DNA of 32,328 nt from Candidatus Yanofskybacteria bacterium RIFCSPHIGHO2_01_FULL_41_21. GTDB taxonomy: Bacteria; Patescibacteriota; Minisyncoccia; 2-02-FULL-40-12; GWA2-44-9. Numbering within the stretch: the stretch's first letter is position 1; each line of letters begins with the position of its first letter. The stretch covers positions 72,455 through 104,782 of the forward strand of contig MGJA01000012.1 in assembly GCA_001794025.1 (NCBI GenBank), in the 5' to 3' direction. Made by a program: the position numbers and the translations under genes. The notes beneath the pieces were generated by a model, which was not told the DNA's origin, ran no database searches, and worked only from the letters and a program-made list of their open reading frames with translations. This document shows, one piece after another, positions 3,306 through 6,426 of the stretch.

Positions 3306-3617
3306 TTATCTTGCGACTATTGGCTGAACTACATTCGGTGGCCATGTATCGCTTTTTGCGCGATTATTTTGCCACTGCAGTGGCTGTAGATTTGACAGAT
3401 CATCAGTGCCTCCATGTGTAACTGGCTTTATGTGATCTATTTCCCAACCTGTTCCACCATCTTTAGTCACACCATACTGGTCCCAATCGATCCATGCACC
3501 ATATCTATCTTTTTGTCGGCTGTGACCAGGAACAATTTGAATTTTGTTCCAAACTGCCAATTTGACCACTTCAGAGAATCGCGAACCATACGATGTAGTA
3601 CCAAACATCCTTAACAT
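3306..3617 (-). CDS. HNH endonuclease domain protein
   Basis: WEIDHIKPVTHGGTDDLSNLQPLQWQNNRAKSD. Confidence 0.8.
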   Translation of the reverse strand: MLRMFGTTSYGSRFSEVVKLAVWNKIQIVPGHSRQKDRYGAWIDWDQYGVTKDGGTGWEIDHIKPVTHGGTDDLSNLQPLQWQNNRAKSDTWPPNVVQPIVAR

Positions 3618-3850: not shown

Positions 3851-3894
3851 TGTGGATAAGTGCTCGGGTTTTGCTCGGGTGTTGGTGTTATACT
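3851..3894 (+). promoter_or_regulatory. Putative promoter/operator of the LexA-MTase gene with DnaA-box match
   Basis: TGTGGATAA (3851-3859), direct repeat tgctcgggtttTGCTCGGGT, TATACT (3889-3894) six nt before ATG 3901 (leaderless-like). Confidence 0.45.
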
Positions 3895-3900
3895 ATATAC

Positions 3901-5418
3901 ATGCTTACTCCACGCCAAAAACAGATTAGGAATTATGTTAATAAAATTATATCGGAAAAAAGTATCGCGCCGACAGAGCGTGAGATTGCCCATAGATTTA
4001 AAATATCGCCATCAACTACCCACGAACATCTCACTACACTTCAGCAAAAAGGATACTTGGGGAAAGCCAATGGACGAGCAAGGGGAATTCAAATTAATGA
4101 TTCTGTTTCCGATTTAATCAAAATCCCCCTCCTTGGTACAATCGCCGCCGGACAACCGATTGAGGCAATTCAAAACACGGAAATGATTGCTGTGCCAAAA
4201 AGTAAAATTCCATCTTCATCAGAGGTCTACGCTCTCCGTGTAGTCGGCAACAGTATGATTGAAGAAAATATCAACGATGGCGATATTGTATTAGTCCGAC
4301 ACCAAGCGACTGCTGAAAACGGACAAAAAGTGGTTGCCCTCATAGATAACTACGGCGCAACGCTTAAGAAGTTTTATAAAGAACGCGGCCATATTCGTTT
4401 ACAACCGGCAAATAAAACCATGGGGCCGATAATTATCAGAAATGGAAAAGATATATCAATCCAAGGAGTGGTACTTGATGTTATTAAAAATAGAGAAGAG
4501 ATTTTTAAAGAAATCACACTACCCAATGTTAAACGAGATAATACTTTACCACTTAATAGAATCATTTTAGGTGATGCTCTAACTGAACTGAAAAAACTTC
4601 CTGACGAAAGTTGCGATGTCATTATTATTGACCCGCCATATAATATAGGTAAAGATTTTGGGAACAATAACGATAAAAGAGAGCTGGGTGAATATATTTC
4701 ATGGTGTAAAGATTGGATGAATGAATGTATGAGGACAATGAAACCATCAGGAACCATGTTTATTTACGGATTCAGTGAGATTTTGGCCCATCTTTCTGTT
4801 GAAATTCCAATAAATAAGCGATGGCTTATTTGGCACTATACAAATAAAAACGTTGCCTCTCTTAATTTTTGGCAAAGAAGTCACGAGGCAATTATTTGTG
4901 CGTGGAAAGATAAGCCAGTTTTCAACAGAGATGAAGTTAGAGAGCCATACACAGAAGGCTTTCTAAACGGAGCCGCTGGAAAAGTAAGGAAAGGAACACT
5001 GGGAAGATTTAGTAGTAACGGTTTAGAAACCGTTTATAAAGCCCACGATGGCGGAGCTTTACCGAGAGATGTTATTAAAATCCCTGCTCTTGCCGGTGGG
5101 GCTGGAATGATTGAGAGATGGTTTTTGTGTAAAACTTGTGATTCTGTTTGCGAGCCACGACAACTAAAAAAACACGAAGGACACGAAATAATGAAACACC
5201 CAACGCAAAAACCATTTGAATTATCTAAAAAATTAATAAAATCCGCCATGCCTAAAAAAGATGGTGTTGTATTGGTCCCCTTTGTTGGCACTGGTTCAGA
5301 GTGTTCTGCGGCAAAAGAATTAGGACAATCGTATGTTGGGTTTGAGATCAACCCTGACTACATAAGATTAGCGGAAAAAATGATTAGCGATAAAAAATAT
5401 CCCGCCAAATTATTTTAA
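3901..5418 (+). CDS. LexA-like S24 repressor/protease fused to DPPY-type (beta-class order) DNA methyltransferase
   Basis: MLTPRQKQIRNYVNKII..TEREIAHRFKISPSTTHEHLTTLQQKGYL (LexA HTH); GTIAAGQP (A-G site); VVGNSMIEENINDGDIV (Ser) and ATLKKF (Lys); then DVIIIDPPYNIGKDFG, HPTQKPFEL and FVGTGSECSAAKELGQSYVGFEIN. Start placed at 3901, not the upstream TTG at 3871. Confidence 0.92.
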   Translation: MLTPRQKQIRNYVNKIISEKSIAPTEREIAHRFKISPSTTHEHLTTLQQKGYLGKANGRARGIQINDSVSDLIKIPLLGTIAAGQPIEAIQNTEMIAVPKSKIPSSSEVYALRVVGNSMIEENINDGDIVLVRHQATAENGQKVVALIDNYGATLKKFYKERGHIRLQPANKTMGPIIIRNGKDISIQGVVLDVIKNREEIFKEITLPNVKRDNTLPLNRIILGDALTELKKLPDESCDVIIIDPPYNIGKDFGNNNDKRELGEYISWCKDWMNECMRTMKPSGTMFIYGFSEILAHLSVEIPINKRWLIWHYTNKNVASLNFWQRSHEAIICAWKDKPVFNRDEVREPYTEGFLNGAAGKVRKGTLGRFSSNGLETVYKAHDGGALPRDVIKIPALAGGAGMIERWFLCKTCDSVCEPRQLKKHEGHEIMKHPTQKPFELSKKLIKSAMPKKDGVVLVPFVGTGSECSAAKELGQSYVGFEINPDYIRLAEKMISDKKYPAKLF

Positions 5419-6105
5419 AGTTTGATCTATTTCTTTTTTCTTCTGTTCAAAAATGTAGGGAGTAAAAACAACAAATCCATTTGATAACCTGTTTAATTCC
5501 TTGTTGTCCTTAAATCGTTTATATGGCAGTTTATATTCTCCGTTCTTTTTCTTCGGGTTTTCAAAATAATCACTACTGGGAACCTCATACTTAATATCTA
5601 CAAATTCGCCTGGTAATTGGTTTTTTGATTTTGGTTTTTCCTGTCGTACTTCTCTACCGAGAGATTTCTTTTTAACTTGATAATTTAAAATTCTGCCACG
5701 ATATTTTACTTGAAAATCGGCTCCCTTATGATCAAGTTCACCAGACATTGAGACAGCTCCTTCGCCAAAAACTGACTCTGCCACATATCCAGCATGTATT
5801 TGAGTGATGATACTTGCCCATGTCCTATAAATTCTTGCAGGTAATCCTTTACTGAAACACGTTTTACACATTCCGGTTTTTTCTTGAAATCTATCAATAT
5901 CTGTTCTATGTTCCTGTAAATATTCTTCATAAAACTTTTCAAAACTCAAAAACTTTTTCTTATCCCAATAAACCTTATATAACATATTGATGGCTTGGAT
6001 TTCTTTTGGTAAATCCATCTCGACAATTTTAATAGACCTATACTTGTCGCGATAGGATTTAAGATCGACTGATTTTAAAAAGTCGTCGAATTTTTGTATT
6101 AACAT
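5410..6105 (-). CDS. TaqI-like type II restriction endonuclease
   Basis: FDDFLKSVDLKSYRDKYRSIKIVEMDLPKEIQ..LYKVYW, LPARIYRTWASIITQIHAGY and LSNGFVVF resemble TaqI as recalled; convergent with the MTase, 9-bp overlap. Confidence 0.75.
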   Translation of the reverse strand: MLIQKFDDFLKSVDLKSYRDKYRSIKIVEMDLPKEIQAINMLYKVYWDKKKFLSFEKFYEEYLQEHRTDIDRFQEKTGMCKTCFSKGLPARIYRTWASIITQIHAGYVAESVFGEGAVSMSGELDHKGADFQVKYRGRILNYQVKKKSLGREVRQEKPKSKNQLPGEFVDIKYEVPSSDYFENPKKKNGEYKLPYKRFKDNKELNRLSNGFVVFTPYIFEQKKKEIDQTLK

Positions 6106-6145: not shown

Positions 6146-6326
6146 ATCCTTCGACAAGCTCAGGACAAGTTCTTTGACTCGCTTTGCTCGCTCACCATAA
6201 ATCCTTCGACGGGGTCGGGACAAGTCTTTCGACTACTTCAACACCGCTCAGGACAAGTCCTTCGGCGGGGTCAGGATAAATCCTTCGACAAGCTCAGGAC
6301 AAGTCCTTCGGCAAGCTTAGGATAAA
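6146..6326. repeat. About six degenerate copies of tccttcgacaagctcaggacaag
   Basis: Units near 6146, 6201, 6225, 6258, 6281 and 6304; related single copies at 2741-2760, 7735-7758 and 20381-20399. Confidence 0.8.
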
Positions 6327-6426
6327 CCAAGGTCGGCTCAATTCCCACCATTTGAGCCAACTAGGAGTGGGGACCAAACTAAGCGAGGTTGTGTAGAAAC
6401 AGGACCAAGCGAGCAGAAAATTATTT

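Follow-up and report, generated by a model that had tools for sequence, protein, structure and literature searches.

The window (the whole stretch of 32,328 nucleotides analysed here, from Candidatus Yanofskybacteria bacterium RIFCSPHIGHO2_01_FULL_41_21) carries on its forward strand, at positions 3901..5418, a gene encoding a fusion of LexA to a DNA methyltransferase (MTase). The open reading frame runs from ATG to stop without interruption and gives a single protein of 505 amino acids, as the earlier note on this DNA, made from the letters alone, had described. Profile searches assigned residues 2-197 to the TIGR00498 lexA equivalog (180.5 bits against a cut-off of 110.95), with a winged helix-turn-helix (HTH) DNA-binding domain at residues 2-62 (3904..4086, forward strand; PF01726, 52.8 bits) and an S24 self-cleavage and dimerisation domain at residues 76-191 (4126..4473, forward strand; PF00717, 104.7 bits). 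Residues 239-493 (4615..5379, forward strand) form a beta-class N6/N4 DNA MTase domain (PF01555, 131 bits), in which DPPY (244-247) precedes FVGTGS (461-466); this is the beta-class order, as the note had read it. The closest solved structures by sequence were Thermotoga LexA (3k2z) for the LexA part and the beta-class adenine MTases M.BceJIV, RsrI, MboIIA and CcrM for the MTase part. An AlphaFold model of the fusion (mean pLDDT 70) matched the same two groups, LexA and beta-class MTases, and supports the predicted two-domain make-up of the protein, but not the relative placement of the domains.

The neighbouring gene, at 5410..6105 on the reverse strand and convergent with the fusion, encodes a TaqI-family restriction endonuclease (REase) of 231 amino acids (PF09573 RE_TaqI, 131.4 bits against a cut-off of 26.1), which also matches the PADLOC REase_II profile with 115.9 bits. 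The 3' ends of both genes overlap by 9 bp, including both stop codons (5410..5418), and the same overlap is present in several relatives. The description of the system as TaqI-like holds for the REase, through its PF09573 membership, and for the depletion of TCGA in these genomes (see below), but not for the MTase, since M.TaqI is a gamma-class NPPY enzyme whereas the cognate MTase here is a beta-class DPPY one. The locus differs from the TaqI restriction-modification (RM) system also in the convergence of its genes and in the predicted control of the MTase by LexA. A 103-residue HNH endonuclease (PF01844) is encoded upstream of the fusion at window positions 3306-3617, on the reverse strand. 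Upstream of the REase, positions 6150-6330 contain a repeat cluster with TTCGACAAGCTCAGGACAAGT-like units, where relatives have an XRE or tRNA gene. The genome to which the window belongs (704 kb, 96.9% complete) encodes RecA.

Relatives, partner genes and head lineage

One pattern scan of 85,462 species returned about 20 full-length, collinear relatives of the fusion with 66-80% identity, the top ones belonging to Patescibacteria and one of them (L082, 76% identity) coming from another genome of the same order as the window. A TaqI-like REase, whole or in part, occupied the same convergent place in 18 of the scanned loci; both the fusion and its REase partner recur in CPR genomes, where the earlier note had suggested looking for them. 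Since the collinear full-length relatives occur in independent assemblies, the fusion is genuine, and a frameshift, chimaera or assembly error was ruled out. Remoter matches consisted of LexA heads 43-66% identical to that of the window, joined to other MTases. The only full-length fusion labelled outside Patescibacteria lies on a 3.8-kb contig named Omnitrophota (L018), which is possibly misbinned; absence outside the phylum is as judged by this single pattern scan, and the data behind the comparisons are mostly metagenome-assembled genomes. A phage or plasmid origin was rejected: in collections of 72,556 plasmids and 50,697 phages, nothing matched the fusion protein along as much as 80% of its length; one IMG/VR contig (L131) carries a LexA-MTase fusion.

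A profile built from 22 fusion heads was run against 380 genomes sampled evenly across the phylum. The 22 best matches included 21 fused frames of at least 494 amino acids from 20 genomes, and the approximately 130 next matches listed after the fusions were all standalone LexA proteins of 201-276 amino acids. All 21 fused frames were DNA MTases, identified by a Pfam match or by motifs and similarity. The MTases found on fused heads belong to the beta N6/N4, D12 (L098, L100) and C5-cytosine (L105, L125, L126, L128) types, and bipartite forms also occur (L104, L106, L123, L124). A profile-verified REase adjoins the fusion in 14 of the 21 cases of the sample, and these neighbours comprise TaqI, MamI, BglII, EcoRV, HindIII, MutH-like, BsaWI, ScaI, MvaI/BcnI and NgoFVII enzymes and a PADLOC type II family; EndoVII-type (EndoVII-HNH) and plain HNH nucleases adjoin fusions in other loci. 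Across Patescibacteria, at least 12 unrelated REase families were found beside fusions, most partner genes being convergent with the fusion and ending a few bp from it. In two proteins of 275 and 288 amino acids (L113:3079-3906 and L114:3854-4720), a LexA head of this kind carries a short excisionase-like HTH tail where the fusions have an MTase.

When 47 fusion heads were placed in one tree with 30 standalone LexA proteins, the latter being the best lexA matches and thus an incomplete sample, the fusion heads fell on one side of a single branch (SH-aLRT 89). Heads carried by TaqI-type MTases did not group together as a clade (p-AU 0.023; 5 changes or more), which argues that heads and MTases have been exchanged. 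An unfused LexA that scored together with the fusion heads (L129, G145 contig 12) lies tail to tail with an AlwI-type REase, which adjoins a D12 MTase, so that the head lineage accompanies RM genes even when unfused.

Cleavage residues and promoter of the fusion

The predicted self-cleavage site Ala83-Gly84 (4147..4152), the S24 peptidase catalytic nucleophile Ser118 (4252..4254) and the catalytic general base Lys156 (4366..4368), all on the forward strand, were found exactly where the note had placed them. None of them varies among the 53 fusion heads, whose identity with the head of the window goes down to about 43%, and this conservation supports that the fused heads are, as far as residues can tell, competent for self-cleavage. 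Two TaqI-type relatives (L022:3497-4726 and L023:4001-5200) lack the S24 domain in frame and keep the HTH, the MTase and the operator box, thus representing a natural non-cleavable version; as both lost S24 yet kept HTH and box, SOS cleavage appears to be dispensable in some lineages.

Upstream of the fusion lies a predicted LexA operator, a direct repeat GCTCGGGT-TTT-GCTCGGGT with a period of 11 (3862..3880, forward strand), followed by a -10-like TATACT at 3889..3894 (forward strand), 6 nt before the ATG; the fusion mRNA is probably leaderless. A shared palindromic LexA box was sought first across the fusion promoters and was not found, the shared feature being instead a period-11 direct repeat in or near the promoter spacer, with letters such as TTTCTA-N5-TTTCTA or TTTCGG-N5-TTTCGG in other fusion promoters. 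When periods from 5 to 21 were compared in 46 promoters, only period 11 stood out, with at least 7 of 8 bases identical in 34 of the 46 against 4.1 in shuffles. The pattern [CT]TC[GT]N7[CT]TC[GTA] was present in the forward orientation in 49 of 54 fusion promoters and only in reverse in 4 more, against 2.6 in shuffles; in both comparisons the shuffles preserve dinucleotides only and kinship is ignored. The same kind of repeat precedes many standalone lexA genes of Patescibacteria.

The letters of the box covary with the recognition helix of the head, located around SPSTTHEH (residues 36-43). Of the 22 heads with E or Q at residue 42, 21 are preceded by a CGG box; of the 31 with F, Y or H there, none is (0/31; Fisher 7e-14), so that box letters agree with residue 42 in 52 of 53 cases. 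When the tree was built from the S24 part only, residue 42 and box type each underwent 11 changes or more. Well-supported branches provided 3 independent pairs, all in agreement with the link between helix and box but too few for a sign test. This covariation ties the fused HTH to the box before its own gene and, together with the presence of the 11-bp-repeat box at fusion promoters, makes it most likely that the LexA head represses its own fusion gene through the predicted box.

Next to the operator there is a DnaA-box-like 9-mer, TGTGGATAA (3851..3859, forward strand), the reverse complement of TTATCCACA. A perfect copy of TGTGGATAA occurs in 35 of 54 fusion promoters against 1 of 30 promoters of standalone lexA, either 11-12 or 19-26 bp upstream of the start of the LexA box, that is, about one or two helical turns away, which suggests a possible input from the replication initiator into MTase expression. 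Some promoters, such as those of L028 and L031, have a near-palindromic -10 (TATTATAATA) with TTGACTT on the other strand downstream, and look like back-to-back promoter pairs; in L102, L103, L121 and L123 a reversed copy of the box is also present there.

Target site and control of the restriction enzyme

TCGA is present at 0.34 of expectation in the window and at 0.40 elsewhere in its genome, the lowest value among the 16 palindromic tetramers. For TCGA, loci of the TaqI type have a median of 0.45, and those in which such systems are absent or of another kind have 0.88 (Mann-Whitney p 6e-7). Because of this strong depletion, the REase would be, or would once have been, active at the site of TaqI; as a sequence trace, it shows past selection, presumably by a TCGA-specific nuclease, and is not a sign of current activity. 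The depletion fits a putative TCGA-cutting REase together with a TCGA-protecting fusion MTase, and from the partner REase and the depletion the MTase is predicted to methylate TCGA. In L013, L015 and L019 (the same locus as L120), a TaqI-type LexA-MTase lies beside a different, profile-less neighbour of about 205 amino acids; as TCGA is still strongly depleted there (0.38), this neighbour may itself be a nuclease, unrelated but of the same site specificity.

The operator is single in the 704-kb genome of the window at up to 3 mismatches, and its relaxed form is no commoner there than the reversed control, so this search gave no multi-gene SOS regulon for the fusion. Since the operator occurs once genome-wide, the fusion would be a LexA homologue and not the SOS regulator of the genome. 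Apart from the fusion, this genome has a single regulator-like S24 protein (L002, G000 contig 3, 59862-60245); it has 229 amino acids, a divergent HTH and a Cys-Gly at the cleavage position with Ser and Lys kept, and proteins like it were found again within this family of genomes.

At least 17 relatives have, ahead of the REase, an XRE gene for a protein of 68-75 amino acids, in several cases accompanied by its own inverted-repeat site. The 17 such XRE-REase promoters examined were all without a LexA box (only 48 nt were readable in L010), and the REase of the window lacks one as well. The earlier proposal that damage would also govern REase expression was consequently not borne out: by the sequence evidence it is the MTase, not the REase, that stands under the LexA head, and damage should raise the MTase only. 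A small XRE HTH gene upstream of the REase recalls C-protein RM systems such as Kpn2I (PMC6237814); here, however, the C-like gene appears to serve only the REase, while the MTase is under a controller of its own, LexA. No XRE gene adjoins the REase of the window, and the locus does not show the C gene and C-box of such systems.

A predicted damage-responsive circuit and its alternatives

The coupling to DNA damage that the earlier note had proposed is retained here for the MTase, on account of the intact cleavage residues, the covarying predicted operator at its own promoter, the presence of RecA and the TaqI-like partner, but not as SOS control of the REase. We consider it fairly probable that the locus is a type II RM system in which an SOS-cleavable autorepressor-MTase would re-protect the chromosome after damage. 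In the undamaged cell, LexA-MTase dimers would bind the 11-bp direct-repeat box over the promoter, keeping MTase synthesis low while TCGA methylation continues; this predicted repression of the own promoter by dimers is the strongly supported step. Chromosome breaks, caused either by outside damage or by the REase cutting under-methylated host sites, would give rise to RecA filaments and to cleavage at A83-G84, a predicted step supported by cleavage residues that do not vary and by a RecA gene in the genome. Cleavage would separate the DNA-binding part from an S24-MTase remnant of 422 amino acids, which is assumed to be able to stay active. Finally, we infer that the promoter would open, that a burst of LexA-MTase would re-methylate the chromosome, and that repression would return once RecA filaments vanish. 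Because the REase would be under separate control, exerted in many relatives by an XRE gene of the C-protein kind, damage would shift the balance from restriction to modification. A feedback loop is plausible, as REase action on host DNA induces SOS in other systems (PMC3874152).

A broader reading, which as a joint claim we put forward tentatively and with somewhat more doubt than belief, would have a portable cassette in Patescibacteria, formed by a dedicated LexA lineage and its 11-bp-repeat operator, often with a DnaA box, placed before MTases of at least three catalytic classes. This cassette would act as a homeostat, in which the cell's own REase cuts an under-methylated chromosome, RecA filaments cleave the fused repressor and the ensuing burst of MTase restores protection, with DnaA adding replication timing.

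The alternative deserving most attention is that the LexA head only binds DNA and dimerises, keeping MTase dosage constant as in M.EcoRII and M.Ecl18kI, with SOS cleavage vestigial or irrelevant. MTases of the M.EcoRII, M.Ecl18kI and M.SsoII kind do carry an N-terminal HTH that represses their own gene (PMC12707154; PMC3874152), and resemble the fusion in having an N-terminal repressor fused to the MTase, for which an operator over its own promoter is predicted here; moreover, L022 and L023 persist without S24, and the covariation of box and helix requires no cleavage. The repressor of the fusion is, however, a whole LexA with the S24 self-cleavage residues, so its repression could be switched off by damage, and this module is common to beta, D12 and C5 MTases. 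The invariance of all four residues in 53 of 53 diverged heads would be unexpected were proteolysis irrelevant, and we regard constant dosage as an unlikely, if serious, explanation.

Two further readings appear very improbable to us, to a similar degree. The adjacent, convergent REase might itself be induced through the LexA head by damage or phage DNA, for attack on the invader or cell suicide, but against this stand the lack of a LexA box at 17 of 17 XRE-REase promoters and elsewhere in the genome of the window, and the XRE controller that REases often have of their own. The fusion might, on the other hand, be the general LexA of the organism, with a genome-wide SOS regulon and the MTase riding along, in line with the divergence of the only other regulator-like S24 match of the genome; this conflicts with the single operator and the control-level count of its relaxed form, and with other genomes that have the fusion alongside a standalone LexA. 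A joining of two genes by chimaera, frameshift or assembly error has a negligible chance, given that about 20 independent genomes have the fusion in collinear form and that many versions with other MTases exist.

MTases with N-terminal repressor domains are already known, as is LexA; a description of their joining, or of SOS-cleavable control of a type II system, was not found in the literature covered, to which the 2017 study of the Patescibacteria LexA network did not belong. That study, reportedly by Sanchez-Osuna, Barbe and Erill in Environ Microbiol, may mention the box or the fusion. The fusion shares with the LexA/SOS repressor the full HTH and S24 architecture and a period-11 direct-repeat box over its own promoter, but differs from it in being fused to an MTase, in belonging to a lineage separate from standalone LexA and in having one site in the genome of the window. 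A direct-repeat LexA box, GTTC-N7-GTTC, is known in Alphaproteobacteria (PMC8565304). Restriction alleviation of EcoKI, which proceeds by ClpXP proteolysis of the restriction complex (PMC11109961; PMC12707154), has the same goal, shielding the host chromosome at times when damage has given rise to unmodified sites, whereas the route proposed here would be induction of the MTase. The question of how cells live safely with an REase during DNA breakage, repair and passing loss of methylation has long been asked, chiefly for the type I systems of E. coli. In the present case the protective MTase itself bears the predicted damage sensor, and the arrangement suggests that DNA damage may directly boost protection against the cell's own DNA-cutting enzyme. 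As the same sensor was attached repeatedly to unrelated RM systems, damage-coupled protection has probably been selected for throughout these bacteria. The fusion would also offer a ready-made switch for damage-inducible methylation.

Two minor observations concern other MTases. A bare MTase encoded in a Spiroplasma citri plasmid (CP047444.1, match H1) is 49% identical to the MTase domain of the window, has no LexA match and is possibly a head-less relative of the fusion MTase. In the genome of the window, GATC is the second most depleted palindrome (0.49-0.58) and another MTase-like frame is present (G000 contig 3, 18129-18851), perhaps pointing to a second RM system.
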